Source of the DNA: Ulota crispa
Taxonomy: Eukaryota > Streptophyta > Bryopsida > Orthotrichales > Orthotrichaceae
DNA length: 64,000 nucleotides
NCBI GenBank assembly: GCA_963920765.1
Contig: OY987245.1
Span: 1,318,727-1,382,726 of the forward strand
Direction: 5' to 3'
Below the pieces are notes generated by a model. The model had not been told where the DNA came from. It did not search any database and saw only the letters and a list, made by a program, of their open reading frames with translations. The position numbers and the translations under genes were made by a program. Below are positions 3,347 to 61,504 of this stretch, one piece after another. Numbering within the stretch: position 1 is the stretch's first letter; each line of letters begins with the position of its first letter.

Positions 3347-3597
3347 CCTATTCGTTAAATTGGGAAAAACAGTACATTTTGAGACTTCTGAGGTTTTAAG
3401 TGGTCACCTAAAACCTTAGCTTGCAGCATTTTGTTGGTACACGTGTCCTCATTTGAGAGGAGAGATTTGAGAGGGAAAAAATCTTAGTGACTCAGATTAA
3501 ATCTGATACCTTTGAATCCGGTCTAAGACAATCTTTTGGATTTAAGGTGGAGAACAAAATGGTACCTCCGTTTTTCCCAATTTAACGAATATGGTGT
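3347..3597. mobile_element. Family A palindrome-cored MITE, copy A1
   Basis: About 250 bp with inverted ends: left TTCGTTAAATTGGGAAAAAC, right the inverse ending CCCAATTTAACGAATATGG. Inside, 3391-3416 is a near-perfect palindrome with arms AGGTTTTA(A/G)GTG. The same arrangement recurs at 7437, 7664, 8699, 10281, 52609 and 61259. No open frame; non-autonomous. Confidence 0.8.
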
Positions 3598-5260
3598 TGT
3601 ACGCGTTCAGCGTACAAGTAATGGATGCTTGCACTCGTAGGGTTTAAGGTAGCTAGTGTCAACACGAGGTAAGAATGAGCGCAAACAAAAGCTAGACAAA
3701 AATCAGTTGCCTTGCACTACCTGGGCACTAAGTTTACTAAGCTTAGAAGAGAAGTATCTTTGTAGGCATTGCAAGGGCGTGGCCGAGTGAGCATGGCAGG
3801 CCAGGGGAACGATAAACACGTGAGAGAGCGGTTGCAAAGCCTTGCACCATGGATGCAGGATTGCAGGTACCATCACCGGTATAACTTAGCTAGCTACAAC
3901 AGGATCCTATCATTCCCATCAATCCCAGGGATTACATGGTCACCAACAACCGCGGAGCCGAGATCCAGTCAGGAGCAGACAACGCACCCGGCCTTTCCAG
4001 GCACTTGCAACAACGAGTACAGTTATTAATGCCCCTCCGAAGTGCCTAACGCCCTAAGCCCCTGGGGTCTGAGCCCTGAGCCGTGAGCTGCTTATTTTAC
4101 GTCGACACTGCCCTTGGAAACCGACAATTTTGGCCCACAGCTGTGATACTCTGGTTCTGTGACTGTTGTTTACTTCAGGAAAATCATCAATGCGCCTGCC
4201 AGTAACTTAACTCATGACTGATTGCCTAACTCATGACTGATTGACTAACTCGTGACTGATTGACTGTCCACCATACCCTGGTAAACTTTTAGTCTGGTTC
4301 CGTAGGCGACTCTCCCAGAGGGCCGTGGCCAGACACACGTTCTCCTGCTCTCTACTGAAAACCTTGGCTAGACTTGGAGCATCCTGGACCATCGGCTCTC
4401 CAAGTTGTCTTGTTCAATTTTGACATGCTCTCAAAATTCTTGGTCCCCACTCTTGCTCACCAAACGTGGCCCATAAATGGTTTATAAATCAATCATCAAC
4501 TGAAGTGGATTTTAGGATAAAGCTCACCAAACGTAAGATGAATAGTACTTACAAGGGCCATTGCTAAAACATCGTTAGAATTGAGTACCATGAGCATATG
4601 TTGAGGAGTTTAGAGCACTTGTTCAAGTATTGTAAGTGTTACACATTTGGCAAGTAAGGGTGCAAATCCTCTTGATCCCCTAATTTCCTAGAACCTAAAT
4701 GCTAAGTAGATCGCAGTTGCAACCACTATGAACCATTGTGCATAAAAGTGGCTAAATTTGGCCTCGATTTCAACTGGAGATCTCCTTTTGATTATTTTTT
4801 TTGTTATTAACTATGAACTATGAAAATCCATACTCATTTAAAATCTGATGTACATACTATGAAGAAAAGAAGAAGCTGGAAGTGTTAATCTATCTATTGT
4901 CCTCTATAGATTGCAAGGGGAAATCCTTCAATAGGATGTCAATCTCTACTTGGAAAATACTGCTGATTGTAGGTGACATTGGAATATCTCCCACTCACCC
5001 GTGACATATAAAGATCTCTCCCAGTTACCATGACGGTGGGATATCTCCACGTTGCCATGGCCCTTGTGCAGAGTCTACAGACCAAATTTGCCTTCATTCT
5101 CTTCACACTAGTCCTCACATTCTGGCAAATGTGTACTTTTTCCTCTGCCTCTCTACCTGTGGGCCTGTAGGGAATAATGGCAGGTGCAGGTGCAGGGGGA
5201 GTGATGAAAGTCATGAGACTACCATATTTCACAATATTGCCGTCTCAGTCGCCGGAGCTC
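3598..5260. other. Intergenic and upstream region of the GDSL gene
   Basis: 3760-4400 is richer in GC than its surroundings and carries an open frame (about 3793-4029) without family features. 4207-4263 holds three units of a 19-bp tandem repeat (taactcatgactgattgcc and variants). No gene is supported. Confidence 0.4.
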
Positions 5261-5269
5261 AATATAAAG
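5261..5269 (+). promoter_or_regulatory. Possible TATA box of the GDSL gene
   Basis: AATATAAAG lies about 280 bases before the chosen ATG at 5542, in a GC-richer stretch. Position and sequence fit a TATA box, but upstream ATGs at about 5296, 5333 and 5425 would then lie in the leader. The placement is inference. Confidence 0.35.
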
Positions 5270-5541
5270 AGCAGAGCAGCTGCAGGTCAGGGGATGGAGA
5301 GGGACCTTGCGCAGCAACCTTTGATTGCGACCATGTCCATCCCAAACTAAGTCACTTGTTGCCGTTGTCACTACTCACTACTAACTACTAAGGCTAGATT
5401 TCGTCCTGCTCTGACTCTCCTGGTATGATTTCAAAAGGACTTGCATTTACGAGCAGTACTCACAGTTGGAATGCTCCTCCAGAGAGTTTGGTTGGCTGCT
5501 TTTCCAAGGCTATTCGTTACTTTTGCACAAGAAAGGTAGCT

Positions 5542-8500
5542 ATGGCGGGGTTTGCATTCAGCTCATACACTGTGTGCATGGTGCTGCTCCTCAGCAATGC
5601 AGCCCTGTCAGGAGTGTCAGGAATCCGTACCCGCAACTTCACCGCGACTAGAACTGCTGCTGAGCAGGCGCCGGTTACTACGAGTGCCAACACGGCGGGA
5701 TTGTTGTTTCCAGCGATGGTGGTGTTCGGGGATTCCACAGTGGACGCCGGCAACAACAACTACCTCAACACCATTGTGAGGTCAGATTTTGTCCCGTACG
5801 GAATGGACCTCGACGGTGGCAAGCCTTCTGGTCGCTTCACCGATGGTCTTCTCGCCACGGATTTCGTTTGTAAGCATCATTCCCACACCTGGCTCACTAG
5901 CTAGCTTGCTTGCTATGCCAGTGAGAGAATTGATTCTGGCTAGCTTTCAATTGCCGTTACGAGGATGTAAAGTGAAAAAATTCCTTTCATAGACTCCAGA
6001 GTGTTTTTCTTTGAGCAATGGCTAGAGATATCGATGCCGGTTCACTTTCAGTCAACGCATGGTTAGCTATTTTCATCACATGTTTTTTGGCCTGAGACTG
6101 CACATGCAATTGCAATAATAGGTGTTTGTTAATGCTTTTGCAGCTCTCAAGGTTGGGATACCACTGCAGCTGCCATACTTGTCACCCGAAGCACATGGAG
6201 AGGCTATTCTCACGGGCGTCAACTTGGCTTCGTCCGCATCTGGCTGGTTAGAAGACACTTCCACCCGCTTGGTGCGTACATTCTACTTCCCCTCTACAAC
6301 TCCATACTATCTCTTTTTTTCACCTCTTCTTTCATTGCTGAGAAAGATTAAACTCAACAGTGAAGTCCAAATTTCTTCCAAAATTATAGATACATCAATT
6401 TCGTTAAAATGGCGGTAAAGTCATTACTATGGAGCTACTTTGGCCGGGCGATCAAAATGTCAATTCTACAATTAGAGCGGTGTGAAGATTATGTCACTAC
6501 TTTTGTCGCATGACTGCCGCCAATTAACGAAATTGACGTTTGGACTTTTTGGTGCAGTAGCCTGGTCATGTTCTTTAACAGCATGTTAGCACACCGGAAA
6601 TATGATGATGCCTGCTACTAAGAGTTCTTAACATCTCTAGTCTACATGATTTCTTTCACATATCGATTTCCCTCACTAGGACTTAATTCTGGTACACGAT
6701 TTTTAAAATGGTTTCCGACTTTCAGTGCTTGTACCGAATGCATGCATGTTATTCGCTTATTCCCTTGCAAGAGCATGCTAGATTACTTGATGAATGTAAT
6801 ATCTTTTACCAATGCTCTTTCTGGTCAATGACACAGCACTCTGGTACATGCATAACCCACGATTTAGAACAATCTATAAAGCATCTTTCAATAAGGACCC
6901 AAATTAATTGCCCTGAATCCTGGATTTTTTATTTAGTGTACCGTTGGGGGTGACAAGAAAGATATGTGATTTCATGAATAGTTGGCCTATATGCCAATGC
7001 CATATTAACCTGAATCTGGATTGTTCATGCAATTTTAGAACTTGTTTGCAAAACAAAGGAAAACCTCCCAATGTTAATAGATATAAATCCTTCAATGTTT
7101 CCCAATGTTTTGCATAATTGTATTGATGTGTTTGTTTGGGCAACTTCAACATGGGGCAGGCATGTGTGTGTGCACCTGCTAAGTCATTTAGTAAACTAAC
7201 CTGTCACCACTGCCGTCTCGGGCAAGCAATAAAAATAAAACAAAGGCTAGTTAGCAATTCCAAAGGTGCGCTTAGTGTGATCCTAGTCCACTTCGATATT
7301 TGGAAAATACAGAATTTTTTTCTGTGTTGTAACTGGTTTGTTCATTGAATCAGAATATTTCAACGGTAACCAAAATCTCTAGATATTCACACAGTGCAAC
7401 TGTGCAACTACATTACATTTTAAGATACCAAGTAACATCATATTTGTTAAATTGGGAAAAAGAGTACATTTTTGGGACTTCTGAGGTTTTAGGTGATCAC
7501 CTAAAACCGAGCTTGCAGCATTTTTTTGGTACATGTGCCAAATTTTTTTCCCTGTTGTAATTGATTTGTTCATTGAATCAGAACATTTCAACGGTAATTA
7601 AAATCTCTAGATATTCACACAATGCAACTGTGCAAGTACATTACATTTTAAGATACCAAATAACACCATATTTGTTGAATTGGGAAAAACAATACATTTT
7701 GGGACTTCTAAGGTTTTAGGTGGTCACCTAAAACCGTAACTTGTAACATTTTTTTGGTACACGTGCCCTCATCTAAGAAGAGGAATTTACGAGAAAAAAA
7801 ATCTTAGTGGCTCAGACTGAATCTAATACCTTTGAATCTGATTTAAGGTAACTTTTGGGTTTACGGTGGAGTACCAAATGGTACCTCCGTTTTTCCTAAT
7901 TTAAAGAATATGGTGATAAGTACCATTAATGCAACTTACTACCGAAGGTTCAAACTTTGCTGGTAATTGTTTAAATCCTCAAAAAATTGCATGTGATCAT
8001 TTTTTGTGGAAATTGTAACACGTCTCTTTGATATGAATAATTTTGCTTAATTGACTAAGTAGCTTCTTTTTGTGTTTGTACAGAATGTAATAGGACTTGC
8101 TACTCAATTAGAGTGGTGCCAAAACTGGAAGAAGGAGGTGCTGAGCGTCGCAGGGCCGCAGAAAGGAAGTTACATCATTGAGAACGCCTTATACGCAATA
8201 AGCACCGGTAGTAACGATTGGGTGAATAACTATTATTTCAATCCCACTCTCCTAGAACGATACACCCCAGATGAGTACACCACCATGCTACTAGGTCATG
8301 CACGCCAATATATACAGGTAAGTGCGTACAGTAGCTCTAGAATCTAAACTCTATACAAAAAACATCAAAATGCCATATATAACTAAATCTGTACAGTTCA
8401 AAGTCCACAAATAGCAGTCCAACTCTTACGTTTTTGGAGATTTGTTCAAAACATCATATTTTCAATGTCTTGCGTGTTTATTGAAAGATCTCCTAACGTT

Positions 8501-11059
8501 TTGCATAGTCCTATAAAATCCATACTTACATGAACAATCTAGGTTACTTTGGTAAGATGTAGCATAAAGAGAGATATAGAGTTTATGTTTATTCAAATTT
8601 ATAGTTAATGCACAATAAACTCTTTACAATTGCTTTGTAGGGATTTGCATATGAATTTTGTGTGTATTAAGCAGTAATATACAGAACGTAGAGAAAATAA
8701 CATCATATTTGATAATTTGGGAAAAACAAATGTCCCACTTTGTACTCCACCTTAAATCCAAAAAGTTACCTTAAACCAGATTTGAAGGTATCAAATTTAG
8801 TTTGAGTCACTAAAAAAAATTCCCTCGCAAATTCCTCCTCTCAGGTGAGGATACATGTACAAAAAAAACACTGAGGAAGGTTTTAGGTGGTCACCTAAAA
8901 CCTTTACTTCAAAATTTTGAAAGTCCCAAAATGTACCATTTTTTTTCCAAATTAACTAATATGGTGTTAAATACGTTGTAATTGGGAAATGTGAGAGAGA
9001 AAAACCATAGAAGAAACAAACAAAAACATTTAACAATTCCTTTGATGTGAACAGTAGAACACAAAGAAAACAAAACATTTGTGAATTCTCTCAAGGAAAA
9101 TGTGAAGAATTCCTAAATTGATATAGGGAAATTAAAAGTATACATGCTGTAATCATAGTTGTCACATTGGATCACCCGTCTAACAGCTTGACCGTTTGCC
9201 CAAAGTGCCCAATGGAGCTCAAGTCCAATTGATGTAGTCAACTCATAATTAATTTCAGAAATGATAACAAAAGAAATTTATTTGTATGTGGTGGTGACAC
9301 TCATTGTTGTCAACAATCAACATGAAGTCAAAACTTGAAGTTAAAGCCAAATCACGAGGTAAAAATGAAAATTATCATTTGATTCTTCCATTGTAAGGTC
9401 AACTCCCTAAAAAAATCCTAAAACACAAAAGTGAACGGACATTGTACATGTCTATTTTGTAAGTTTGCCTGTCAGGTCCGATAGCCAAGTTTGCTTGTCT
9501 TGTACGCCAACCAAATCTTGCCTGATGTGACAATTATGATTGTGATTGTACGTGCATGTGTGTGACAATCGACAGGAGTTGTATGACTTGGGGGGCCGCA
9601 ACATCGTCATCCTGAATCTTCCGCCTCTCGGTTGTGTTCCGCAGCAAATCACTCTCCATGGCCATGGCAACCAAAGTTGCGTCAAGTTCCTCAACGACGC
9701 TTGCAGCCGTTTCAACGAGCAACTGCTGGCATTGACAGACGACATGAAGAAAACGACGATGCCGAATTCTCGACTCGTCTTGTTTGACATCTATGGCAAT
9801 CTCTACAACGCCTTCCAAAATCCTCAACAATTCGGTACGTCATTTCTAAAAACATTGATCGATCTCACACCCACGAACTCACCTGATTTTTGAAACGGCT
9901 GAATTAAGGTAGCAACACCCATACGCGTCACTTTCCCCATGGGCGTGACCTACATTTACATCCATATCTGAGTTTTTTTGTGAGTTGACCAATAAATACA
10001 AAAATAAATTGGTCATGGGTCACAAAGTAATGGTTTTGGGTGACAAGGTAATGATTATGGGTAACAAGTGCATCCCATTTGAGTGCCAATGGGTATGGAA
10101 ATAAGTTCAAAGAATGATGTTAAATAGTTTTGCAACACCATGAATAAATAAACAAAGGAGGTGAAAACACCATTCAAGTACCCTAAGCGTGATATTGTCA
10201 CTTTTCATGACAATTTTGGGTGCCCCATTGTACTATTTAAGTGACTATTCAAGCTAGTATTATGAGCGTATGAGCACAGAACACTATATTCGTTAAATTG
10301 GGGAAAACAGTGGTCCCACTTTGTACTTCACTTTGATCCAAGATAGTCACCTTGAACCAGATTTGAAGGTATTAAATTCAATATGAGCCACTAAGATTTT
10401 TTCCCTCGCAAATTCCTCCTATCAGGTGAGGGCACGTGTACCCAAAAAAACGTTGCTAGCTCAGTTGTACATGATCATGTACAACTTGCAAAAGTCCCAA
10501 AATGTACCCATTTTTCCAATTTAACGAATATGGTATTACAATGAAAACGCTAGTATTATGAGCATATGAGCACAATGAAGACTTCAGTAAGCTTCTTTCT
10601 TAATATCTCCTCCATACAACTATACATTTATAATGATTTTGGACTTCGAAAAATCTTTGTGGACAAATTCTTGTAATTGTAGTTTTTGAATTGATGTCAA
10701 TATTTTTGATTTCCTTTAGCTTATCTAACAATGATTTCTTTCAAAGTTCATCAATTGATTTTCTTACTCCAAAATCCTTAGTTTCACGCTTATGGGTGCT
10801 GCCACCTTAATGATCTAAAACCGCAAGTTTTGTACGTTGCGGTTTGGTTTCAGGATTCAAGTACACTCGGTATGGGTGTTGCGGGAGTGGGATCATCGAA
10901 GTTTCGATATTTTGCAACAAAGATGTACCGGTGTGTGAGAATCCAAGTGAACACCTCTTCTGGGATAGCTTCCATCCCACCTCCCACTTCTACAGCCAAT
11001 TGGCGGATGTAATGATTGCTCTTGTCAAACCCATTCTTCTCGCACCGCCCCACCCTTAG
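5542..11059 (+). CDS. GDSL (SGNH) esterase/lipase, 5 exons
   Basis: Predicted secreted ester hydrolase of the plant GDSL family, 384 aa. Exons: 5542-5869, 6144-6271, 8084-8317, 9576-9834, 10854-11059. All introns are GT...AG and the phases join without a break. The start at 5542 gives a clean signal peptide (MAGFAFSSYTVCMVLLLSNA...). An in-frame ATG at 5425 would add 39 residues and bury that signal. Block I is VVFGDSTVDAGNNN with nucleophile Ser65. Block II is near GVNLASSASG. Block III is GSND with Asn196. Block V is DSFHP with Asp354 and His357. NIVILNLPPLGC in exon 4 is also typical of the family. Length and exon number match plant family members. The substrate cannot be told; relatives act on cutin, wax or other acyl esters in the wall. 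Introns 2, 3 and 4 (1.8, 1.3 and 1.0 kb) are enlarged by MITEs. The reading frame is intact. Confidence 0.93.
7312..7767. repeat. Tandem duplication of 228 bp inside GDSL intron 2
   Basis: Units 7312-7539 and 7540-7767 are nearly identical, with a constant offset of 228 (for example ttcattgaatcag at 7341 and 7569). Each unit carries intron flank plus the left half of a family A MITE, so copy A2a is truncated and A2b is complete. The duplication therefore came after the MITE insertion. Confidence 0.8.
7437..7539. mobile_element. Family A MITE, truncated copy A2a
   Basis: Left terminus and central palindrome (7485-7508, arms GGTTTTAGGTG around AT) are present. The right half is missing because the copy ends at the tandem duplication junction. 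Confidence 0.75.
7664..7917. mobile_element. Family A MITE, complete copy A2b, in GDSL intron 2
   Basis: The left end is CACCATATTTGTTGAATTGG and the right end the inverse ending AATATGGTG. The central palindrome is at 7712-7735. Same orientation as A1. It lies wholly in the intron. Confidence 0.8.
8699..8968. mobile_element. Family A MITE, copy A3, in GDSL intron 3
   Basis: Reverse orientation relative to A1. Ends ACATCATATTTGATAATTTGG and its inverse. The palindrome at 8878-8903 has arms AGGTTTTAGGTG and no mismatch outside the two central bases. Confidence 0.8.
9905..10809. mobile_element. TA-flanked MITE, family F, copy 2, in GDSL intron 4
   Basis: The left end TAAGGTAGCAACACCCATAC and right end CTTATGGGTGCTGCCACCTTA are inverted. 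It is about 905 bp, of which about 255 bp is a nested family A copy. The ends resemble those of copies 1921-2238 and 56889-57207, but the interior is longer. It fills most of intron 4 without touching the splice sites. Confidence 0.55.
10281..10537. mobile_element. Family A MITE, copy A4, nested in family F element
   Basis: Left end ATATTCGTTAAATTGGGG, right end inverse. The usual central palindrome is replaced by an unrelated perfect 22-bp palindrome at 10464-10485 (arm GTTGTACATGA). A 27-bp near-identical direct repeat (gctagtattatgagc...) lies on both sides at 10253-10279 and 10549-10575. Confidence 0.75.
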
Positions 11060-13223
11060 AAGGAGAGGTCCAAACTTGTGATTCTAGAAGAGGCTCACCT
11101 TTGGTATACTAGAAAAAGAAACAAAAAAACAGAAATTGGGCAAATGACTACATGTTTGCCACATTCATTATAACGTCCCATTTTCTGCAAATTTACGTGC
11201 GTATGTACACAAGTAAATATATGCACATTTAACAACGTACGTACATTGTACGTACGTATGACCTCAATGAAGCCCATTCTTGTTCAAAGGAATGGCGATT
11301 GGTCATTGGCTAAAGAAAGGCAGGCAACTTCTCATAACATAGAATGATTTTGCAGCAATTGGGTGCGACATTGTTTTATACCTTGGATAAATATGTTTGA
11401 ATAAGATCTCACTAGTTAATTTAAATCTGGTAGCATAATATTTTGTTGTACTTATAATTACGGAAATAGCATCCCCTCTCTTGTCAGACCCAAGCGTTTG
11501 CCATGTTAATTCTCATGATCATACTCTAAGTTTTCACATAATCTAATCATAATCAGTCATCGTGTGGTAATTATGTGTCTGAAGTCTTTCCTTTAGACAA
11601 GCCTTCGTGTTAACAGTTGCTTCAAACTTGAGGAGTACAACCTCAGTATTGCGAGTTTGGCAAGTTTGAGTGTGTCAAAACGAGATGAACCAAGTGTTTG
11701 AAACAGGACATTTCAATTGCTGAGATGTGCTTTTAGTTGCCCACCTAAAACTTTGAGGTCCCGATTTAAGGAAGGACTTAAATGTCAAAGTAAAGATGAG
11801 GGTCAAATTACTCCGGTCCTTGGTCGAAAGCCATTTTTTGAATGTGATAATTGTGTAAAAGTTAAGCTAATGCAACAAACATGACCGCCTATTGCAGCAC
11901 AGCTGCTTGACACACTAATATGGGGTTTCACAGTACAAAAATAAAAACCTGAGTATCATGCACATTCTATGAAGGACGACCTTTTGATTATAGGGTGATA
12001 AAATGGCTTGGTATAATTATGTGATAGTTTGACTTGCTTTTATCAAGGAGAATTGATTGATTGTTCAGGTGATCAAATAATTTGAAAATTTGGCGTGATC
12101 TCATTGTTCAGTTTTGCTCACCTGCTGTAGGTGAGAAAACTGCTTGCCAAAGCCTAGGATCTTGTTTCCAAGTGTTGTGGAATTCTGCCTTACAACAAAA
12201 TTTATTTTATCATGATAAAATTTGAGCTAGATCATTTACGTTTTGTACTCTTGGGTGATAAAATTGACTTTTGAAAACACCTAATGAACATTAAAAATCT
12301 AAGCCAGGACAATCTTGCATTGAATCGGTTATATAAACATTCTGAAAGCCATCAGCTAGCCAACACCAAGAACTTATTTAGCAAACAATTTCAATGTAAA
12401 TGTAGCATCCGTGAGCCAAGTTTTGCAATTCAAACCTTCATGGCTTCATCTACATCTCCCACTGCTGCAAAACTACTCCATTACAGGCAATTCTGACCTT
12501 GTAAAAATCCAACCCTTGTAGATTATTACCTACAATGCAAATCTTTGGAATATGAGAATCAAGGGGTAATTTTGGGAAACACCTGTTAGTAAGGATTTTG
12601 CAGATTTTTATTTGTTTACTCATATTTTGTCCAAAAACACACATGCTAAGAGAACGATGAGCCAATTTTCCAATTCAAATCTTTGATAGCATTTCCCACT
12701 ACCACAACATTAACTTCCTGAGACGAAGTTACCGCACTTGGTGGCATTTCTGTTGCAAAACAAACCCTTCTAAATTTTTGCCTGAAACATACACCTTTAG
12801 AATGTGAGAACACAGATACTAGTAATCAATATTCCCAAAATTCATAGTTTTTTTTGGTACAGCAACCAATTAAATCTGGCAAAAGAGAGAATGCTCTGAA
12901 GTCCAATTGTTCAACAAAAAGTTCAACAAAAACAAAAGAAAAAATCATAATTAGGAGCTCATTCAGATGCTTTTAGTAGTCATCTATGTGCTTTTGGTGC
13001 AGTGACCTCAACATAACATGGTTGGATTTTTGTTGTAAATCCTCCACGTTCATTCATAATCTCATTCACAAAATATCCCAAAAATACACGTTACTTACAA
13101 GAATCTAAAATCCTCCATTCAGTTGCCAGAGCACGGCTCAATCAAACCTACACAAAAACTAACCTACGACAGAATCATGCTCAGATGCTGAATGGGACTC
13201 TTGTTTTGATGAGGAGACCCCCC
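11060..13223. other. Convergent intergenic region between GDSL and peroxidase genes
   Basis: It should hold the 3' ends of both genes. AT-rich; the frames at 12284-12496 and 12450-12665 are short and show no domain. No repeat with clear ends was seen. Confidence 0.4.
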
Positions 13224-14983
<1,760 letters not shown>

Positions 14984-15959: not shown

Positions 15960-16191
15960 TTAACCCCTGAAGGGCCATTGGGCTCTGGAGATACAGTATC
16001 AAATACGGTCGCAACCATTATTTACAAGTTTGAATCAGTTGGAAATTAAGTGTTACAATCATACATATTGAAAGGTTGTATGATGGTAGGTGCATAAGTT
16101 TTTTTGAAAAGCTCTCAAAGCAGCTCAAATATATCTGTATATACGGTCGTATATACGGTCGCAAAGGGCTTTCAGGACGTCCAAGGGTTAA
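15960..16191. mobile_element. TTAA-flanked MITE, family D, copy D1
   Basis: 232 bp beginning TTAACCCCTGAAGGGCC and ending CCAAGGGTTAA, so both ends carry TTAA next to CCC/GGG. It has no coding capacity. It is followed directly by D2, sharing the TTAA at 16188-16191. D3 at 17021 is the same element in opposite orientation. Confidence 0.75.
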
Positions 16192-16421
16192 CCTTTGGAG
16201 GGCCCTTGGGCGCTGGAGAGCTATAGTATCAGATATGGTGGCAACCAATATTCAGAAATTTGAATCAATTGGAAATCAAGTATTACAACCATGCATATTG
16301 AAGAGTTGTATGATGATGGGTGTAAAAAAAAATTTGGAAAACCCTCAGAGCAGCTCAAATATGTCTATACATATGGCCATACATACAATTGCAAAGGGCT
16401 TTCATGACGTTCAAGGGTTAA
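16188..16421. mobile_element. TTAA-flanked MITE, family D, copy D2
   Basis: 234 bp, TTAACCTTTGGAGGGCCC to TTCAAGGGTTAA, clearly homologous to D1 along its length (words such as AGCAGCTCAAATAT and GCAAAGGGCTTTCA recur). D1 and D2 stand head to tail. Confidence 0.75.
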
Positions 16422-16517
16422 GGTTTTTGTCTTCAATTATACTAGTGTAGTGGAAACAACAAAAGTGGCGTTCCCTATGACTAAGCTTCACACACAACTT
16501 GGAGCACGTGGGTAGAA

Positions 16518-17020
16518 TTAACCCCTAAAGGACCAAGCAGCCTTTTGCATCTAGTACAATACAAGGTATTTTTTTTGTATTTGAAGTACATCCACACCTT
16601 TAAACCTCATATTCAATAAAATGGGAGATTGGGCACCTCCCAAAATAACCAAAGGAGACATAAAACTTTTCAATTTTAGGTTAGTTTTGAAAGGTTTTAT
16701 TGCAATTTAAGTCAAATTGCAATAAAACTTTCTAATTTTAGGTAAAATTTGAAGGGTTTTATGTCAATTTAGCTCAAATTGAGTTGAATTGACATAAAAC
16801 CTTTTGTTGACTTTCCTTTCCATTACCTCTCATTTCAATGGAAAACTCCCATTTTATTGAATATGGGGTTTTTATTACATTTGAGATCAACAAAGAAATT
16901 AGAATATAGATCAATGATGTTCTAGTGAGGTAGTCAAAATCCCAACTTAAAACTTTTTATTGGTAGCAAATGCCAGTTATACAGCAACGTACATACTATG
17001 TATTATAGTAGCTTGGTCCT
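16518..17020. mobile_element. TTAA-type element, family C-like
   Basis: The left end TTAACCCCTAAAGGACCAAG pairs with the right end GCTTGGTCCTTTAA, where the GGGG is missing. Inside, 16672-16855 folds as an imperfect inverted repeat around AAATTGAG...TCAATTT. The right border abuts D3. Confidence 0.5.
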
Positions 17021-17398: not shown

Positions 17399-17448
17399 TA
17401 GTTAAAACCCGTCAAAGCGATAAGGGCGGGTTGTTCCAATAGTTGCCC

Positions 17449-18284: not shown

Positions 18285-18758
18285 TCTATATTAATAAAAG
18301 AATAGCCGTCAATCAGTTAGGGCCTATCATGTAATAGCGTTCAATCAGTTAGGGTCAGGCATAAGCTAGGTTTGGGCATAACTAGGATCGAAAAGGCATA
18401 AATGGATAAAGTAAAATCACCTGTGACTCTCTTTTATCTATTTCACTAAACGTTAACAAGAAGTCACTGGTAGTTGCATCGTCATTGGCAATTGCATCGT
18501 CACTGGCAGTTGCACCACAACTTTCTCTCGGCCAAAAGAGAACACGAGGATAAGGGGACACGAGGATAAGGAAGTACTGGGATAAGGGGGCACAGGAATA
18601 AGGGGATAAAGGAATAAGGGGACGCGAGGATAAGGGGGCACGGGGATAGGAGGACATGGGGATAAAGGGGCACGGGGATATGAGGGCACAAGGATTGGGG
18701 AGCACGGGGATAGGGGGTGGGGGGCATAAACTTGTTGGTACGATGGGCAATATACTAG
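18285..18758 (+). mobile_element. Helitron-like unit, 474 bp
   Basis: It starts TCTATATTAATAAAAG after an A and ends GGGCAATATACTAG before a T. That fits Helitrons, which begin TC, end CTAG-type and insert between A and T. A second, related unit starting TTATATTAATAAAAGAAT follows at once (18759). I do not see a strong terminal hairpin, so the assignment is tentative. A minisatellite lies near the 3' end. Confidence 0.4.
18538..18722. repeat. GGATAAGGGG-type minisatellite
   Basis: About 11 degenerate units of 15-18 bp with consensus near CACGRGGATAAGGGG. The G-rich strand is the plus strand. A shorter version occurs at 19665-19735. It creates spurious proline-rich frames on the minus strand. 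Confidence 0.85.
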
Positions 18759-19744: not shown

Positions 19745-20678
19745 TTAACCCCTAAAGGACTGAGCCATTTTTTCAGTGAAAATCACTCAAAACTGCTACT
19801 TTTGGGGGGTTAGTAAGAAGGTTTTTTTTTTAAATTTGGGAAATCCAACCTTAGGATCTTGCCCTAGACTAGATTAGGTACTTGTGGAAAAAAAAATTGG
19901 TCATTCCGGATGGACATGAGTGAGATATTTACATCTAAAGTGAAAAGAAAAGTTTTTTTTCATGCTGCCGCAAAATTTTAGAAGCCTTTGATCATTCTTA
20001 CATGAAAATAATTGCTCTATGCAACTTTGCACTTCATTTTTCCTATGTAGGAGATCAAGTTAGCTATGTGTGAGAGAATTTTCAAATCAATTGGAACTAC
20101 ACAACACATAGGAAAAATTAGTAAGTAAAAAGAAGTAGAGAATGAGTCAAATCACTAAATTGTTAAAAATTGAACCATTAAAATGAAAAATGCAAATTCC
20201 GCGGTCATAATGTTGTGATAAACAACCTACATCCTTTGGTTTTTTTTTTTTTTCCAAAATAATAAAAATTGAGTAAAACAAAGGACTTCAAATTTTATTT
20301 CAGAGTAGAGATTCCATAATTGCCCGCAAACAAAAACTCATCATAACTTTCATCATTGATTGAAATTGAATGATTCAAAGCTTCTCACCTATAAAAAAAA
20401 TCTAAAGAATCAATTTCAAATTTTAATTTGTAAAAAATTTAATTTTTAAAAAAGTTTTTGGGCTGCCCGCGCGGGCAGTCCTCCCTTGCTTTTCAGATTT
20501 TCATGCATAACTTCTTCAATAATTGTTGGAATGAGGAAAACATTAGATGCTCGCGTAGATCTTTGAATTCCCCACCTTCAATAAAAGTTTTAGAAAATCA
20601 CACAAAGTAGCCTATCCAAAGGTACATGCCCGAACTCCCACCTGTCCCCCAAAGGGACAATAGTCCTTTAGGGGTTAA
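19745..20678. mobile_element. TTAA-flanked element, family C, 934 bp
   Basis: Ends TTAACCCCTAAAGGACTGAG and AGTCCTTTAGGGGTTAA are perfectly inverted for 16 bases including TTAA. The interior matches the element at 39645-40568 in reverse (CAACCTACATCCTTTGGTTT; TTTGCGGGCAATTATGG). A 12-bp palindrome GCCCGCGCGGGC lies near 20465. No transposase frame. Confidence 0.8.
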
Positions 20679-51825: not shown

Positions 51826-52155
51826 TAAGGTAGGAGGCTCATATCCCGCTCAGGCTCAAAAACCGTCCACTTTCTCAAATGTATTTTATGTGTATATGCT
51901 ATTTTTTATAGGTTTCAAAAATATACAAGTACAATACATTTGAGGAGGTGAACTATTTTAGAACCCTATGGCCTTTTCACTTCAAAAATTTATAACTAAT
52001 TCCACAAAACTCTAAAAAATGTGAAACAACTTGGGTTAGTTGTCAATTCTTCTTGTCTTTCAAGGGAAATTTATTGAAAAGTAGTTCAAGAAGTTTGACC
52101 TCCCCAAAATTTGGTTTCAGCCCTTAGATGGTCCATTCATGAGCCTCCTACCTTA
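51826..52155. mobile_element. TA-flanked MITE, family G, copy G3
   Basis: Left TAAGGTAGGAGGCTCATATC and right, inverse GAGCCTCCTACCTTA, enclose 330 bp. CCCTTAGATGGTCC near the right end matches G1 and G2. Confidence 0.65.
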
Positions 52156-52608
52156 GTATGTGCCTCATGATATTGTATTCTCAATTGTATTCCTTTTTTT
52201 ACAGGATTGTACAGTCTTTGTAAGAATTTGGTTGCATATTGAGATACATACATTATATGATAAGTAATAACTAGGAGGTAAAGATTGTGAATCTTACTAG
52301 GTGTACAATGGTTCTTCATATTCTAAGAAAGATATTCTTCAAACTTGGTTAGAAGCATGTAAACTGTATTTGTGTAGTTTGTGAGAGTTTATCTTTGTTG
52401 TACTTGGATTGTAGGAAAGGAGATAGACCTTACTTTGACATAAACTAAGTTTACAATGAGTTTGAGAAATAAGTAGCTTGCTTTTACTAGTACCCATGGT
52501 ATTGTTAGCATTTGAAAGAAACAAATCTATACCTTTTTTAAAGTGCACTTGGTATTCTATGACGCTTCATATATTTGGCTGAAGTTAACTTTGCACAAGT
52601 AGTTTTTA

Positions 52609-52868
52609 ACGTCATATTTGTTAATTTGGGAAAAACAAAGGTACCATTTTGTACTCCACCTCAATCCAAAATAGTTACCTCAGATCAGATTCAAAAGTAT
52701 CAGGTTCAATTTGAGCCACTAAGATTTTTTCTCTCACAAATTCCTCTTCTTAGGTGAGGACAAGTGTACCAATGGGGCTTGCTTCAATGGGGTGATCACC
52801 CCGTTCTTCCCAAATTTTCAAAAGTCCCAAAATGACCCTTTTGACCCAAATCAACAAATATGGAGTTT
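52609..52868. mobile_element. Family A MITE, copy A5
   Basis: Ends TCATATTTGTTAATTTGGG and AACAAATATGGA, reverse orientation. The central palindrome is GGGGTGATCACCCC (52789-52802), different from the other copies but still perfect. Confidence 0.75.
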
Positions 52869-53274
52869 TTTTTATAAATTTTAGGTTTATAAGATATGCA
52901 TTGTATTAAGTTTCAACATTAATGTTTAGTAAGATAAGACCTGCCAATGATACATGAATTTTAGTCACCAAAATTAGTGCAATTTAAAAACCACAAATGA
53001 TATGGAGTAACTACAAAGAAGTATTTCCGTTTATCTCATTGAATTTTTAAAATTTTGTAAATTGAACACTCTACAAAGCAACATAAGCATCCAAAAACAC
53101 AAGCTATAACTATAAGAAGGCCTCTTTACAGATTAATTCTCGAGGATTAATTCGTGCTTTGAAGAGCCTTCTATAGTGAATCTATATACTTAATTAATTG
53201 GAAATCGTCAAAACATTCACTGTGAGTCAAATTTGTTATTTTGTAGACAGAGTGTTTATTGTGAAAATTACGGG
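52869..53274. other. AT-rich spacer
   Basis: No gene or repeat ends recognised. Confidence 0.35.
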
Positions 53275-54188
53275 TTAACCCGTTAGAGACCACCGAACCA
53301 TATTTTGGTTCACGAGAGTGGTTTTTGGCTTATAGAGTAAAATCATTCTACAATTTGGAAACCAGTTTTGAAGAATGTTTGTCTTTATAAGAATTTTGCA
53401 TTCAACCAAATAAAAAACAATGAAAGTAGGCATGTGACTTGATAAATAATGATGTTTATACGGCATAACCTCAAAATACGTATCCGTATTTGGTAAAAGA
53501 TGGATCAAAGCAACAACACAATACATTAAACATCCAAGAAGAATGTCAAATTCTAATTGTGAGGTCCTAAAATTTTTCAAATTACTCAAGAAATACGCTT
53601 GTAGTGTTTCTCTATATGGTAGTAGTATAATTGTAATATTTGAAAATTTATTGAAATGGTGTTGTTATTTCATCTTTAAAATTTGTCATCTTACAATTTG
53701 GGCCAATTCTTGATTGTTTTCACCAATTGGATTTTTCATAGCATTTATCAAGTTTCTTATAAAATTGTTTTAGGGTAGCAAATAAAGTGGGATTTTTGAC
53801 CCTTTTTGTCCACTTAGCTACACCTTGTGATTGCTATTTTTGTCCATTTTGTGTGAAACTAGTCTCATTGGAAAGGTGAGAAACCTTGTTTTCTAGAAAT
53901 ATAAGGCTCTTCTCAAACAAATCTTGTATGAAGTAGTAAGATCCAAAACCACACAAGCACAAAAACTTGAGATTTTCCACCTACAACTCACGCAATCATT
54001 ATGATATTTCACCTCCAACGGTAAATCTAGTTGAAATTTTGATATTTTATACTAAACAAGGTGTCCTTCACATTTGTACAATTGAATTATTGAAATCATG
54101 TCCATATTTGATTCAATCACACATCCAAGTTTACTACCCCAATTTCTAATGAATTTTGTGAAAATGTGTATGGTCTTCAAAGGCTTAA
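53275..54188. mobile_element. TTAA-flanked element, family B, copy B2, 914 bp
   Basis: TTAACCCGTTAGAGACCACC at the left and GGTCTTCAAAGGCTTAA at the right, so TTAA stands at both ends with near-CCC/GGG termini. Homologous throughout to B1 and, reversed, to B3. Confidence 0.78.
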
Positions 54189-54360
54189 ACAAAAGACATC
54201 CAGCAATGAATAATAACACTTTGTAAACCTCAAGTATAGAAATCATCTCAACACGAGAAATTCATCTAATAGAATGATGGCACCTTTGATTAGGTGCAGA
54301 TATTGATCATGCAAAGCTTTTCTTTTAAAAATCCAAATTGTCACTCAAAATGAGCAGTTT

Positions 54361-55008
54361 TAACCCTAAATGCCCAAGGCACCCAATTTGGGTGTTTGCA
54401 AAACTTTGAAGATGAATAAAATCTTATCAAATCACTATTTTTGGTATTTTCTTTTGAACACAAGTTTGTTTTGAATTCTATTTTCAATATCAAAAGTCCG
54501 ATTTTGAAAATGAATGTTCATGCTTTTCTATTTAAGATTTTGTACAAGGGTGTCCACTGCAATCTTAACTTTTTTAGTGTTGGAAGATTTTGAAAATGAG
54601 CCTCAAATACACTAGAGCTTGGAGAAAAATCCGCATTAAAAATCCATAAAAGAAAATTGTAGGAGTAAATTTTGAAAGCATTAAATTTGTTGACGTTAAA
54701 CATGTAATGATCTTAAACCTCATACTTTTTTGAAGACCAACTTTTTACATTTTAAAAGTGAAATGAGGATTAGAAAACTTCAAGTCACTTTTGCAGTTTT
54801 AACACCCTCATGTCCAAACATTATAATCTTTCAAACTGTAAGTAATATTGTTGTGTTTTGTTTTCCATGTAATCCCTACCATGTCAAGTTTAAATTTGTA
54901 CGGTTACAATTTTAAAAACTTAATGAGATGTATGAAAAGGTTGATTGTTTGTTCACTTTCTTGAAAATGCCAAGAAGTTCAGAAAGGCCTTGGGAATTTA
55001 GGGGTTAA
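54361..55008. mobile_element. TTAA-flanked element, 648 bp
   Basis: TTAACCCTAAATGCCCAAGG and, inverted, CCTTGGGAATTTAGGGGTTAA form terminal inverted repeats of about 20 bp with TTAA at both outer ends. The interior is unlike families B and D. No transposase. Confidence 0.75.
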
Positions 55009-55312
55009 TCCAAAACATTCGAAAAGAAATGCATTTCTCCAAAATAGTCTACCTTTGCTTTGACAGTAATTGTGACATTAGAGAAAATTTGATAAGACGC
55101 TTCAGGATTTTTTTTTAAATGATGAATCCCACTTGAAGAAAACCTATTTCTGTGAAACTCAAGAGAATATCTCATATTTCTTCATTGCTAACTCTTCTGA
55201 CCATCCTTTATGACACAATTTGAATGATTGTTTGTACAAATTAAAGTACAGCAAAATTTGACACATAAGCTTAGCTAAAACTAGAGCTAAAACCAGTCTA
55301 TAACTATTCTTG

Positions 55313-55893
55313 TTAACCCCTAAAGGACCGAGGGTCCTTTCGGGGACATTTGGGATTTTGGGCATGTACCTATGGCTAAATTACTTTGCATGATTTTCTG
55401 AAACTTTTATTGAAGGTGAGGAATTCATAGATCTACGTGGGAATGCAATTTTTTCTTCATTCCGACAATTATTGAAGAAGCTAAAAATAGATTTTTGGAA
55501 AAAGCTGCTCCTCGGGCAGCCAAAAACTTTTTTGCTCTAAACCACACCTACTTGCAAACTAAAACTTCTCATAACTTTCATCTCATTTATGAAAATGGAA
55601 TGATTCAAAACTCCCCACATCTATATAAGTCTAAAGAACCTATTTCAGATTTTTATTTGAAAAAAATGAAATTTCTAAAAAAGTTTTTGGCTGCCCAGGG
55701 AGCAGCTTTTTCCAAAAATTCATTTTTAGCTTCTTCAATAACTGTTGGAATGAAGAAAAAATTGCATTCCCATGTAGATCTATGAATTCCTCACCTTCAA
55801 TAAAAGTTTCAAAAAATCATGCAAAGTAGTTTAGCCATAGGTACATGCCCAAAATCCCAAATGTCCCCCAAATTGACAATGGTCCTTTAGGAT
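55313..55893. mobile_element. Foldback element, about 580 bp, derived from family C
   Basis: Left arm 55313-55537 and right arm about 55675-55893 are inverted copies of each other: TTAACCCCTAAAGGACC outermost, TTGAAGGTGAGGAATTCA inside, GGCAGCCAAAAAC innermost. The arms match the right half of 19745-20678, so it looks like a rearranged derivative. The right TTAA has decayed. A 96-codon frame at 55495-55785 is a by-product of the inversion. Confidence 0.8.
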
Positions 55894-56886
55894 GTATGTT
55901 TTTAAAAAATGTGAGCTTAGGATATGAATTGCATACACCTCATAGCAAAAAAACACACAATCAATGAACACGTATTTGCATAACATTTAGTAGCACTCAG
56001 CAGGCCTGCCCTCCCTCCAACTAATAAGTGTGGAATATTCCACACCCATCAGTAGCTAAGAGGACACTTGGCTGAATTTGTCAGAGAGTTTATGAAAGAG
56101 AGGCTCAGTTTAGTGCATTTACTTCAATGTGGGGGCTAGCCATGTCAGAAAATTTAATTTTAAAAAAATTAAAAATTAAAAATTGTCATGATGAAGTTCG
56201 TGGATGATACCTAAAGAGAGGGAAGGGTAGCCTCTCTTTAGGCTACTAAATGTTATGTTATTGGTAACTACAGCTGATCCACATTTTTTTATATGTACCT
56301 ATTGATTTATTTTTATTGGTATGTCCTAGCAAAAAAGCACACATAATCATTATATGCTTCTTGCAGTGCTTATAACAAATTTTCAAAGAGATTATTGTTT
56401 GTTCATATGGTGTTCACAAATACAAGTACTCAAATAGCTTGAATTTGTAATTCAACATCCAATGCACTCAAAAAAACTTTAGTTTTTTTTTAAATAGTAA
56501 TTATGCTTAATTGCTCATACCAAATCTTTTCACTACAAATATGCTTGTGAGTCCATCACATATGGAATTCATTTTAGTTGAAGGTCCCCAATACTTCCTT
56601 ACCATACTTGGGGTGTTAGGGATCCATGGGGGGTTCATCCATCGTTAGTCTTGTTATTAACTCTCACTTTGGTGGGTTTGGACCATGGAACTTCCTTTGG
56701 TTTGTTTGTACCCAGTCCACATCAACTCATTTTTTAGGGACAAAAAAATGGTCATTTGGAGACAGGGAGATTGGGATTAACTGAATGGTGACTGATCCCT
56801 CCGTTTATCAAACAATGAACTGTGGACAATAAAAATCTGACAAAAACTACCCAACACCAAAAAAGTGCACTGGTCCACATTGTAAC
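55894..56886. other. Intergenic, nothing recognised
   Basis: AT-rich; no coding signal and no paired repeat ends found. Confidence 0.35.
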
Positions 56887-56888
56887 TT

Positions 56889-57207
56889 AAGGCAGGAGCA
56901 CCCATAAACGTCAAACTAAGGGTTTTGAACATGATGACTATTAATTAACAATTAACAAATTATAGGATCTTATTAGGAATTGAAAAAAAAAAAGAGTTTG
57001 CACTTTCAAATGTATTATTTGGATATTGTGAGAATAAGTTATGAATTTTTAAAGAGCAAACAACTAGTGCACCCATAACCACTTTTAAGAATTCATGTTC
57101 ACATGTTGTACATTCTTGTCATTACATCTATTCATTTCCACAAATTTTTCAAGAATTTAGAAATGATAGTTATGGGGACACTGACACTTATGGGTACTCA
57201 TACCTTA
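56889..57207. mobile_element. TA-flanked MITE, family F, copy 3
   Basis: Reverse copy of 1921-2238 with ends TAAGGCAGGAGCACCCATAA and TATGGGTACTCATACCTTA. Its right end overlaps the TTAA where family B copy B3 begins. Confidence 0.65.
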
Positions 57208-58433
57208 ACCCTTTAAAAACCACACACATTTTCCCAAAATCCATTAGAAACCGGGGCAATAAAATTAGGTGTGCATTTGAATCAAATATGGACCCAATTT
57301 GAATAATCCAACCGTACAAATGTGAAGGACACCTTGTTAGTTGTAATGTATCAAAATTTCAACTAGATCTACCATTGGAGGTGAAATATTATAATGATTG
57401 AGTGAGGTGTATATGGAAAATCTCTAGTTTTTCATGCTTGTATGGTTTTGAATGTTAACTCTTCATGCAAGCTTTGCTTGAGAAGAGCCTTACATTTCTA
57501 AAAAGCTGGGTTTCCCACCTTTCCAACAAGACTTGTTTCACACAAAATAAACAAAAATAGCAATCACAAGCATTAGGAAAAATTTGGGGGGTCCATAAGG
57601 CCTTTATAAACAAATCTAGCCCTCCATTGTTTTGTTCCCAATGTGGGGAACCAGCGCCTGCAAAAGGCCTAAAAAATTTAATAAAAATAATCCAAAAAAT
57701 AAATAAATAAGTCTTAGAAAAAAATAAGAATTTTATTTTTTATTTTTTTTAAATAAAAAAATTCAAAAAGCTGAGGTGGCATCAATGATGCCACCTCAGC
57801 TTGCGCATGATTTTATTGGGGACCAGGTTCCATGGCTAAGGACCCCCCCGAACTCAGGGCCTTATTGGGGCTCCATATTTTTCCTAATGGTGTAGCTAAG
57901 TGTACAGAAAGGGTCAAAAGTCCCACTTTCTTTACTACCCTAAAACAATTCTACAAGAAATTTGATAATTGTTATGGAATATCCAATTGGTGAAAGCAAT
58001 CAAGAATTGGCCTTAAATATAGGATGAATTTAAAATGAAATAAAATGATAATATCATTTCAATGGATCCTCAAATACTACAATTGTACTACTATTGTATA
58101 GAGAAACAATGCAAGCGTATTCCTTAAGCAATTTGAATTTTTTTAAGATTGTACAATTGAAATGTGGCATTCTTCTTAAATGATGTATTATTTTGTTGCT
58201 TTGATCCATCTTTGACTCAATATGGATATGTATTTGAGGCCATGATGTATAAATACCATTATATATCAACTCACATATCCGATTCCATTGTCTTTTCTTG
58301 GGTTGGATGCAATATTCTTGTGATCACAAGTATTCTTCAAGATCATTTTCCAAATTATTGAGCGACTTGATTGTATAGACCAAAAACTACTCTCCCGAAC
58401 CAAAATATGGTTCCGTGGTCTCTGAAGGGTTAA
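57205..58433. mobile_element. TTAA-flanked element, family B, copy B3, with nested MITE
   Basis: TTAACCCTTTAAAAACCAC at the left and GTGGTCTCTGAAGGGTTAA at the right: TTAA on both sides and a 15-bp inverted repeat. Reverse orientation relative to B1 and B2. Without the 319-bp insertion it is 910 bp, the same length as B2 (914). Confidence 0.82.
57571..57889. mobile_element. MITE nested in B3, 319 bp, no target duplication visible
   Basis: Ends CATTAGGAAAAAT and ATTTTTCCTAATG are perfectly inverted; the repeat continues imperfectly to ATAAGGCC. B1 and B2 show the empty site CACAAG/GTG, so the borders are exact and no duplication is visible. A perfect inverted repeat with 16-bp arms AAGCTGAGGTGGCATC and a 3-base loop lies at 57768-57802. 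Confidence 0.8.
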
Positions 58434-59602
58434 GCTTACTCGGACCCTCACTTGGACCCTCACTTGGACCCTTTTGCTCTGACCCTTGTTCCTCACTTGT
58501 TGACTTTGATGAAGGAGAGTTCACATTTCCTGTTTCACTGAGCTGACTGGGGAAAGCGGTACACCAGTATATTGAAAATGAATAAAATTCACGATCAAAT
58601 TAAGACACCTTCACAACAACTAATGGATAATAACAAGCTTGATTAATTCATAACCAACTATTACTTGTTAGGCCTAGTGTTTCGGAAAATTGTGAGCTGC
58701 CTAATGTAAAAATCCTACAATTTTCATTTTCAGCCGGCTTTTGTAGTGCGAGCATTGGATATTGCCTATATTCTTTTTCTATGATTAGAAATTTCTCAAA
58801 AATTTATCTGACTTTTATCTAATTGATTCAAATTTCAAATGATTTTTTTTGACATTTCATCAAGCTGACTTTGTAATGTTTTGGATCTCCCCACTCATTG
58901 ATTGAGCCTTTTTGAATTGGTGCTATTTAGTTGCACAAAACTACTGATCATATGGTATAACCCTTCAGAAGTATTGTAAGTTGATTGTGTCCTTGGATTG
59001 CTTGGACTTTGTGTTTATTCATGATTGAAGATTAGGGTGGATGCAACTAGATATATTTTATATCTAACTTTGGTCTTGTATATAGACAATGGTGCAAGAT
59101 TGATGGTTTGGATTGAAAGTTTTCTGCATTAGGGGTATTTTTTATAGAAACTTGGTTTGATAACATATTTTGTTGATTCAGGATTCCAAAAAGCTGAGGA
59201 AAAGACACACGTGGGATAACATTTATAGCAAAATTTCCACTCAATTTGATGATAAAGGAAAGGATGTATGTGTTAAAAAATAAGTAATGTTTGTATACAG
59301 TCCCGAACAGTTAGAATCCTTTTCCTATAACTCTCTCAGGCAATCAATACTTTAGCAAATTTAAAAATAATCAAAATTCTAAAAAATCAAGAAAAAGTAA
59401 TAAATTGCATTAAACTTTGATGTAAGTTTAAATAAGAGAAATGTTAGAAAAAAACATTTGAAAAAAAACATCAAGTCATGATTTAAATGCTATTGAAATC
59501 ACTATAAGTTCACTAATGATATACCTCTAATATGTTTTCAGTATACTCTCAATGAATAACAAGCTTGCTTGAGTTACGGAAATTTCAAGTTCTAAAGTGC
59601 AG
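58434..59602. other. Intergenic, short tandem repeat near its start
   Basis: 58442-58475 holds about three units of GGACCCTCACTT. The rest is AT-rich without recognised features. Confidence 0.4.
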
Positions 59603-60010
59603 CTAACCCATTAACGTTTGGTGGACCATTTCTTGGTCGATTTTGACTCTCTTCAGTTTGTAAAAAGAGCATGTTAAGGAATTTGATGATGTGGCAAAGG
59701 GGACGGGTATGGGGAATTGGAAAGTGAAGAGTTTAGGACAATCACCAGGCCAATTTGAGGTGGCATGTGGCTAGAGGGTTGAAAAAACTAAAAAAGTACC
59801 AACTAAAAATATACCAATAAATGCAAAAAGAGGGCCATAACAACTAAAGAGTGAGCAAAATTCATGATGCACAACACTAAACCCTGCAAGACACTTCCAT
59901 CTATACAGTCATATCTGTGATAGACATTTGTATTCAATAGTTTGAAAATTTCCCCCAAGTGGCCATACAAAGGATTGCCCCCCAATCGACCACAAGCGTT
60001 AATGGGTTAA
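59603..60010. mobile_element. TTAA-type MITE, 408 bp
   Basis: Left end CTAACCCATTAACGTTTGG (TTAA mutated to CTAA) and right end, inverse AAGCGTTAATGGGTTAA. The ATTAACG terminus differs from families B-D. No coding capacity. Confidence 0.6.
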
Positions 60011-61258
60011 AAGCCACAAAGATGTTGATGATGTTGAAAAAAAGTTGATGAATACGGCTTACTCATTTGTGCAAAATTGCATTTAACATGGATTAAAAAC
60101 ATGGATTAAGAATAATCCATTCTTCAAATTTTAATACATTTGTCCCCCTTACTAGACTTTTCAAACATTTCAAACATGTAATCATTTTTAAATTTGATGA
60201 AGAGTAGTTAGAGTGTATGGGAGGGTTTTAGTAAGGACTATGACTTTCTCTCTGGGAACCTATTAGAGTTTCTTTCAAGATTTTCAATTTTTTTTGAATG
60301 GTACATAAGGCCGCTATGTTTTTTTTGTAACTTCCTAATTATCTGAATAGATGCTCCATTGTACCATTGTAGGTTGGTTTTTTAACTGGAATGTCTTAGA
60401 ACAAACTTGGGGCTTTCAAAGAGTTGCTGTCTAACATCCTTTGTACTCTATGTTTTTTTGTTCTCTACACTCTTCTACCTATTCTTTCTGCCATTCCTTC
60501 AAATCAAAGAAGAACAAAAACACTCTAGAAGGTTTGCGTGTTTTCAAAAATTTATTACAAACAATATTTTATTTTGTTCAGAGCATATCTTTAGAGCAAT
60601 CAAAGAACATGCCAATTTTGACAAAGAATCACTTTCACAATTGAAGTTCAAATTTGAATGTTAGCAAGTAATGTGTAGTTTGAGGAAAATCAAGCCTGTT
60701 TCTGGGCCTTACTTTTCTCCTTTATAACTTGTTACTTGAATTATAACTTGTTACTTGAAGTTGGATATGGAGAATTAGGCCGTGCTCTTTAAAAAGACCA
60801 AAAGTTAATTTGTAATTGCAAAATTGTCAATTACTGCAAGTTGAACAATTGAATGGTAGATATTGGCCAACATATGTGTATGTGGGGTTTAAGAAAATAA
60901 GAAATCAATGCAATATTTGCTGGATTTCCTATGGAGTGCCAAGCTCAACTAACAAAGCTTAGTCCAACTAATCTCATTTCTATTTTTTAATTCTTTGAAT
61001 TAAGAGACATTTTTCAATTCCAAGTTTGTATCGATATCACAATTACAATCCAACAATAGATTCCCTTTTAGCCCTCCCAGAACACAACAGAGGTTGCTTG
61101 ACACTTAAAACTCCAGTTGAATTTGAAAAGTTATCCAAACATCTCATTTATAAAAAAAATCAAATTTAAGTAAACTTAATCCTTCTGAAGAAAAGAAATG
61201 TTCAATTTTAATAGTATGTACAAAGTCACATTTAGTTGAAAATCATTATAGGTAAAAA
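60011..61258. other. Intergenic, nothing recognised
   Basis: AT-rich; the overlapping frames at 60407-60664 show no domain. Confidence 0.35.
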
Positions 61259-61504
61259 GCAATATTTGTTAATTTGGGAAAAATGATACATTTTGGGACT
61301 TTCAAGAAGTGAGTCAGGAAGTTTGAGGTGATCACCTCAAACCGACATGTGCCCTCACTTGAGAGGAGGGATTTGCGAGGGAAAAAATCTTAGTGGCTCA
61401 TATTGAATTTGATACTTTTGAATCTGGTTTTAAAGTAGTTTTTTGGGTTTGAGGGGAAACAAAGTGGGACCCCTCTATTTCCCAAATTAACAAATATCGC
61501 GTTG
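61259..61504. mobile_element. Family A MITE, copy A6
   Basis: Ends ATATTTGTTAATTTGGGAA and TTCCCAAATTAACAAATAT, same orientation as A1. The central palindrome at 61321-61342 has arm GTTTGAGGTGA and is perfect over 22 bp. Confidence 0.8.

Follow-up and report, generated by a model that had tools for sequence, protein, structure and literature searches.

Matched change on both arms of an internal palindrome among lineages of a miniature inverted-repeat transposable element family in Ulota crispa

Stowaway and Tourist, the miniature inverted-repeat transposable elements (MITEs) of grasses, are short and non-coding, have terminal inverted repeats, reach high copy number and lie in introns, as described for Stowaway in PMC1925063. 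Family A, the subject of this report, is like them on these points, introns being a possible setting for four of its copies; it was found in a window of 64,000 bp (the whole stretch of DNA analysed) from the moss Ulota crispa, contig OY987245.1, positions 1,318,727 to 1,382,726 of assembly GCA_963920765.1. It differs from Stowaway and Tourist in its 4-bp target duplication of variable sequence, theirs being TA or TAA, in its terminal sequence, and in carrying a separate internal palindrome (the core) whose sequence is lineage-specific. A short motif in both orientations inside the ends also recalls the subterminal transposase-binding repeats of Ac/Ds and En/Spm; the transposases of those systems bind the repeats, whereas family A has no known transposase. 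Helitron, Helentron, HINE and ATon elements likewise have short palindromes, or subterminal repeats that are palindromic, and retain them as structural features from family to family (PMC4067079, PMC3422177). Helentrons, however, prefer TT targets and have a 3′ palindrome near an end (PMC4067079), unlike family A with its terminal inverted repeats and 4-bp duplication.

A further parallel is the maintenance of hairpins by template switching, which produces matched changes on both stem arms, sometimes several at once (PMC8794818), as in family A. It is described there for RNA genes, and resident copies of family A show at most a small excess of such changes. The main text of that paper does not contain the terms transpos, MITE or plant. 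Each ingredient is known already: MITEs, subterminal repeats and the rewriting of palindromes. Searches of titles and abstract openings in the open-licence literature gave no paper on covarying palindromes in MITEs, which is a weak negative, and those searches showed no MITE family whose internal palindrome undergoes compensatory change at the level of lineages, with dead copies as a control.

Here we show that matched core arms in family A characterise the lineages that have spread, and that individual inserted copies do not conserve the palindrome: it drifts in them like the rest of the element, mostly on one arm at a time. Symmetry is a strong tendency, strongest in mid-arm, and not a law. 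Thousands of candidate copies in one genome provide both a selected history, in the lineages, and a neutral control, in the dead copies.

Element structure and sampling

Family A elements are about 257 bp long, non-coding and too short for a transposase, and end in terminal inverted repeats of at least 23 nt that open with AACACCATATTYGTTAAATTGGG; both repeats were located ungapped in 167 of 175 copies. Target duplications were counted over 185 copies, 125 of which had both ends and enough flank (60 were unusable), and 93 of the 125 have an exact 4-bp duplication where random pairing expects 2.26; when lengths of 2–10 bp were compared, 4 bp alone stood far above random pairing. In structure, family A is a MITE. 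We leave its superfamily unnamed because a 4-bp duplication misfits the common plant groups: Stowaway duplicates 2 bp, Tourist 3, CACTA 3, hAT 8 and Mutator 9, and membership of each was rejected on that length, while Helitrons and Helentrons, which make no target duplication, were rejected because family A makes one. No autonomous partner with family A ends was found in the window and twenty 10-kb stretches; the scan of these gave two long end-to-end candidates, both with unequal flanks. The empty sites of the 93 copies show a weak symmetric base preference beside the 4-bp target, with G, C before it and G, C or T after.

The genome searched was the window's own, a 274.8-Mb assembly of 157 contigs, in which a first look gave 4005 candidate places for copy A1 (40 scored). 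Since copies not chosen by their core were wanted, the queries were limited to body sequence on the 3′ side of the core, taken from seven family A copies and later from two more. DNA was read around 20 hits for each of the seven queries and around 20 together for the last two; the rows were 20 of the 40 listed in each of the seven groups, taken from the top with self-hits and already-sampled copies skipped, and 15 and 5 for the last two body queries. Two mini families, 110–140 bp long with family A ends, occur in the 10-kb stretches and contributed 8 and 12 rows. A search with the whole element had supplied the first eight loci and the twenty 10-kb stretches. Together these gave 187 copies, 185 of which were divisible into a left body, a core region and a right body (two were not), and finally 205; gaps or decay removed 10 of the 185 and 10 of the 205 from the pair counts, leaving 175 and 195. 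Trees were built on the two body parts, core excluded, ancestral states were assigned by parsimony, and branches with five or more tips were called deep.

Matched change between lineages and decay in resident copies

Core type follows body lineage. Copies cluster largely by core type in a tree built on right-body sequence only: in the clade sampled with the body of window copy A5, 20 of 21 copies are of the GGTTGTACATGATCATGTACAACC type, the remaining one being gapped, and all 21 copies in the clade sampled with the A7 body are of the GTTTGAGGTGATCACCTCAAAC type. Arms in other lineages (labelled S with a number) read TTTTAGG, TTTAAGG, ATTAAGG, TTTGGGG and TTTTAGGAGG. Some clades are mixed, S4 having two or three core types and S1, S23 and S2061 each a few copies nearest another type. 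A tidied set, with S6 merged with S23, the mini centre set to AT, outer bases normalised and S25 absent, contains eight distinct matched cores.

Majority cores vary between lineages at most stem pairs, yet their arms match. Over eleven lineages, which include S25 and the two mini families (the first mini family, mini-1, being represented by the core found in 4 of its 9 copies, the commonest one), pairs 2–10 are complementary in 96 of 99 lineage-by-pair cells. Shuffling right arms among lineages left 74.2 paired on average and reached 96 in none of 200,000 trials. At pairs 5–9 every cell is paired (55/55, in 11 of 11 lineages), a result reached by 2 of 200,000 shuffles. For ten lineages, S25 excluded, slid controls are 17–60% paired against 97.8% at the true core, and 7 of 9 pairs have changes on both sides against 2.2 in shuffles. 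Chance as the cause of matched arms is contradicted by the shuffles and the slid controls. The initial annotation of the window had reported seven copies with palindromic cores; these exist, and go beyond chance both in lineage-majority pairing and in supplying 4 of the 14 perfect palindromes of at least 14 nt in the window.

The trees place much of the matched change on deep branches. With 175 copies, pairs 2–10 have 8 two-arm and 5 one-arm changes on deep branches against 8 and 120 on terminal ones (Fisher 4e-6); with 195 copies, after the S25 and S26 copies were added, the counts are 7 and 10 against 7 and 127 (Fisher 1.4e-4), the S5 change at pair 4 being two-arm on the smaller tree and one-arm on the larger. 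Split by position (195 copies), pairs 5–9 show the contrast, with 5 two-arm and 4 one-arm deep changes against 4 and 66 (p 6e-4), and the four one-arm deep events make up two paths of two steps each, both ending complementary. Pairs 2–4 alone show none (1 and 5 against 3 and 44; p 0.39). Among 167 copies, 8 of 15 deep changes in the core were two-arm, compared with 7 of 43 in the terminal repeats and 9 of 552 at random pairs of body columns; of the 74 deep branches with a change anywhere, 9 have core changes.

Resident copies behave differently. Within clades the core changes by 0.050 to 0.104 per site and the body by 0.048 to 0.078, the core changing about twice as much as the body in S23 and S6 and the two lying closer in other clades; on terminal branches a core column has 7.56 changes and a body column 7.75. 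Across 1545 cells at pairs 2–10 there are 122 one-arm and 9 two-arm changes, where independence expects 4.4 of the latter; with outer pairs 11–12 included the counts are 220 and 17 (15.1 expected). On terminal branches the core has 7 two-arm changes among 112, the terminal repeats 21 among 339 and random body columns 127 among 5860; the small excess in the core comes partly from mixed lineages. In the 175-copy tree 8 of 128 terminal changes at pairs 2–10 were two-arm: those in L154, L167 and two L014 copies look like lineage mixing, two of the eight are not complementary, and those in L017:4857 and window copy A6 may be single-copy events.

Three further accounts of the core were set aside. 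Rewriting in resident copies as the main cause is at odds with the few two-arm changes there, despite their small excess. Excess deletion at the core is not seen, since the core is gapped or decayed in 10 of 185 copies (5.4%) and 24-column blocks of right body in 1.1 to 15.1%. Simple sequence conservation does not hold either, with 1.17 deep changes per core column against 0.88 per body column.

The initial annotation had read matched arm change as the mark of a hairpin, a dimer site or a copying process. Such change is borne out beyond chance between lineages; individual copies mostly show one-arm decay. The annotation had also held that asymmetric decay of other cores at the body's rate would reduce the pattern to chance in a few copies. 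One-arm decay near the body rate is just what the other copies show, as worded; chance does not follow from it, given the pairing of the lineage cores.

Explanations for the symmetric core

The core consists of two subterminal motif units (about GGTTTNRGGTGA) placed head to head, and the 3′ part of the element carries two copies of a motif like GGTTTAAGGTAA/GGGTTTAAGGTGG, both in the same direction. G at pair 7, found in S23, S6, S26 and S7, goes with G at the matching place of a 3′ unit in all four of these lineages and in none of the other seven, although three of the four form one clade; the left arm of S25 and its first 3′ unit have AGTT in common. Because the pair-7 G is echoed in the 3′ units and the changes of S2061, S4b and S5 are not, the arrangement suggests a putative binding motif used several times, the inverted pair being under a rule of its own.

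We regard it as an evenly balanced proposition that the core pairs two inverted copies of a subterminal motif belonging to the element itself, and that its symmetry is maintained during the mobile phase for use as a dimer site or a hairpin. The symmetric core would then have a job during mobilisation. One option is a putative dimer binding site for a transposase or host factor; the other is a small DNA hairpin, with a predicted stem of 7–10 bp and a 4-nt loop GNNC. Predicted hairpins of 11 typed cores have energies of −6.6 to −11.1 kcal/mol (z −3.5 to −7.1). Sources with arms out of step would spread less unless the other arm followed; sequence would be permissive and shape less so, the centre (pairs 1–4) tolerating mismatch and the middle (pairs 5–9) hardly. 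Selection for a symmetric site in mobilisation would explain the neutral decay of dead copies, the matched change of lineages and the tolerance at the centre. The commonest core of the mini families is GGTTTAAGTTG-GT or AC-CAACTTAAACC, exactly symmetric in 4 of 9 mini-1 copies; it combines a matched change at pair 4 with a non-complementary centre, and a free centre would fit a hairpin loop or a spacer between half-sites. More tentatively, and with somewhat less than even confidence, we suggest that compensatory evolution, classically taken as evidence of a functional RNA stem, here reveals a functional DNA palindrome, mobile lineages keeping the core symmetric within a wide choice of sequence and dead copies serving as the neutral control. 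Family A allows a test of whether DNA shape, beyond sequence, is read in transposition.

Several observations weigh against selection for a symmetric site. The eleven lineages were chosen by body similarity and are not a random sample, and the contrast between deep and terminal branches fell from 4e-6 to 1.4e-4 once 20 copies joined. S25 failed a prediction set before its copies were read, namely that majority cores would be complementary at pairs 3–10, with two or more mispairs counting as a breach: its core, GGTTTTAGTTGATCCCCTAAAACC, is mispaired at pair 3 in 16 of 16 copies and at pair 4 in 15 of 16. Both pairs lie beside the centre, and pairs 5–12 are intact in its majority core; the majority core of S26 (5 copies) was complementary as predicted. 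S25 shows that a lineage can spread with an imperfect core, and an absolute symmetry rule is broken by it. Other inherited mismatches are that of S6 at pair 10, a one-arm change at pair 4 common to four S2061 copies, a mismatch at pair 3 common to three S4 copies, and mismatches at pairs 4 and 5 common to three of nine mini-1 copies. S2061, S4b and S5 changed both arms without the same change in their 3′ units. The small two-arm excess in resident copies (9 against 4.4; 7/112 against 127/5860) is not predicted by selection.

That excess would be expected of a mutation bias, in which one arm is copied onto the other by correction of the quasi-palindrome or by template switching at the hairpin, at the source or in transposition, the palindrome itself having no function; we consider this a possible but unlikely explanation. 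Template switching has been proposed for compensatory stem changes, and accounts for matched change of several bases at once (PMC8794818). It would also suit the bursts of core change on founding branches, where 18 core sites of S5 took 6 changes and 210 body sites 7, the corresponding counts in S2061 being 4 and 3, and the 17 transversions among 21 deep core changes, compared with 69 of 185 in the body; terminal core changes include 65 transversions in 136, and part of the deep excess is core composition. Such a bias sits poorly with the scarcity of two-arm changes in resident copies, where we judged one or two of the eight terminal cases plausible as single-copy events. Copying from arm to arm supplies no new sequence by itself, and one-arm variants inherited by several copies imply that correction is not automatic. 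The rewriting of both arms by template switching, raised in the initial annotation, is thus at most infrequent in resident copies, and it is possible that it would act mainly at the source copy. Family A offers a way of gauging how much template switching rewrites palindromes in nature.

An improbable alternative is that whole palindromes are transferred from body to body by recombination among lineages, double changes then being replacements and not compensation. Similar cores do occur on different bodies (GAGGTGATCACCTC in two L014 copies, L144 and S7; GGGG in S6, S23 and S26), but common ancestry also accounts for some of these recurrences, and swapping only moves the question back, as eight distinct matched cores still had to arise. 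It is highly doubtful that the half-sites match only since both must fit one changing transposase, symmetry being irrelevant: the echo of the pair-7 G in the 3′ units and the AGTT of S25 speak for such fitting, but the changes of S2061, S4b and S5 in both arms are absent from the 3′ units, and the terminal repeats, also transposase-fitted, change symmetrically less on deep branches than the core does.

Copies in the window, related elements and neighbouring features

Six of the seven window copies are full or nearly so and one, A2, is a 5′ part. Lineages are those of the body-only tree. A1 (3342..3598, + strand, ends read by eye; S1 lineage) has its core at 3392–3415 (GGTTTTAAGTGGTCACCTAAAACC) and flanks GTAG/GTAC; its arms, GGTTTTAAGTG and CACCTAAAACC, have one mismatch and a non-complementary centre, so the perfect core attributed to A1–A3 in the initial annotation needs correction for A1. 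A2 (7434..7548, + strand) lies inside a local tandem duplication and has a perfect 24-nt core at 7485–7508. The duplication, at 7313–7703 with a spacing of 228 bp (163-nt reference, 91% identity), comprises flank and the 5′ part of a family A copy, which is why A2 is partial.

A3 (7662..7917, + strand; S1) has its core at 7712–7735 (GGTTTTAGGTGGTCACCTAAAACC) and flanks AAAT/AAGT, and A4 (8699..8968, − strand; S4) has its core at 8879–8902 and an exact target duplication, AAAT; in both the arms are perfect and the centre is GT or AC. A5 (10280..10537, − strand; S5), numbered A4 in the initial annotation, has a perfect 24-nt core at 10463–10486 (AGTTGTACATGATCATGTACAACT) and flanks ACAG/ACAA. 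This core had been called unrelated to the others; GGTTGTACATGA and GGTTTTAGGTGA have 9 of their 12 arm positions in common, the TGATCA centre included. A6 (52608..52867, − strand; S6; previously A5) has a perfect 14-nt core at 52789–52802 (GGGGTGATCACCCC) and an exact duplication, TTTT, and A7 (61256..61503, + strand; S7; previously A6) has a perfect 22-nt core at 61321–61342 (GTTTGAGGTGATCACCTCAAAC) and an exact duplication, GTAA.

A2 to A5 lie within 5425–10980, between exon-like stretches of a gene, and may be four copies in introns of one gene. The stretch at 9576–9836 matches Pfam Lipase_GDSL (E 7.8e-8); that at 5425–5865, also exon-like, gave no Pfam match.

A separate MITE-like element at 16603..16870, with flanks TTTA/TTTA, has a terminal repeat similar to that of family A (AACCTCATATTCAATAAAATGGGA) and long internal inverted repeats; its terminal sequence and duplication length point to a relation with family A. 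Long-hairpin relatives with family A-type ends are also present. Elements at L024:5182–5430, L028:5454–5700 and L009:4601–4868 (the ends of the last two approximate) have family A-type ends and arms that by eye look complementary over most of their length.

Elsewhere in the window, 18520–18727 is a degenerate 16-bp tandem array, and 55319–55891 holds a 215-nt inverted repeat, 92% complementary, with arms 143 nt apart, one of which is related to 20490–20672.

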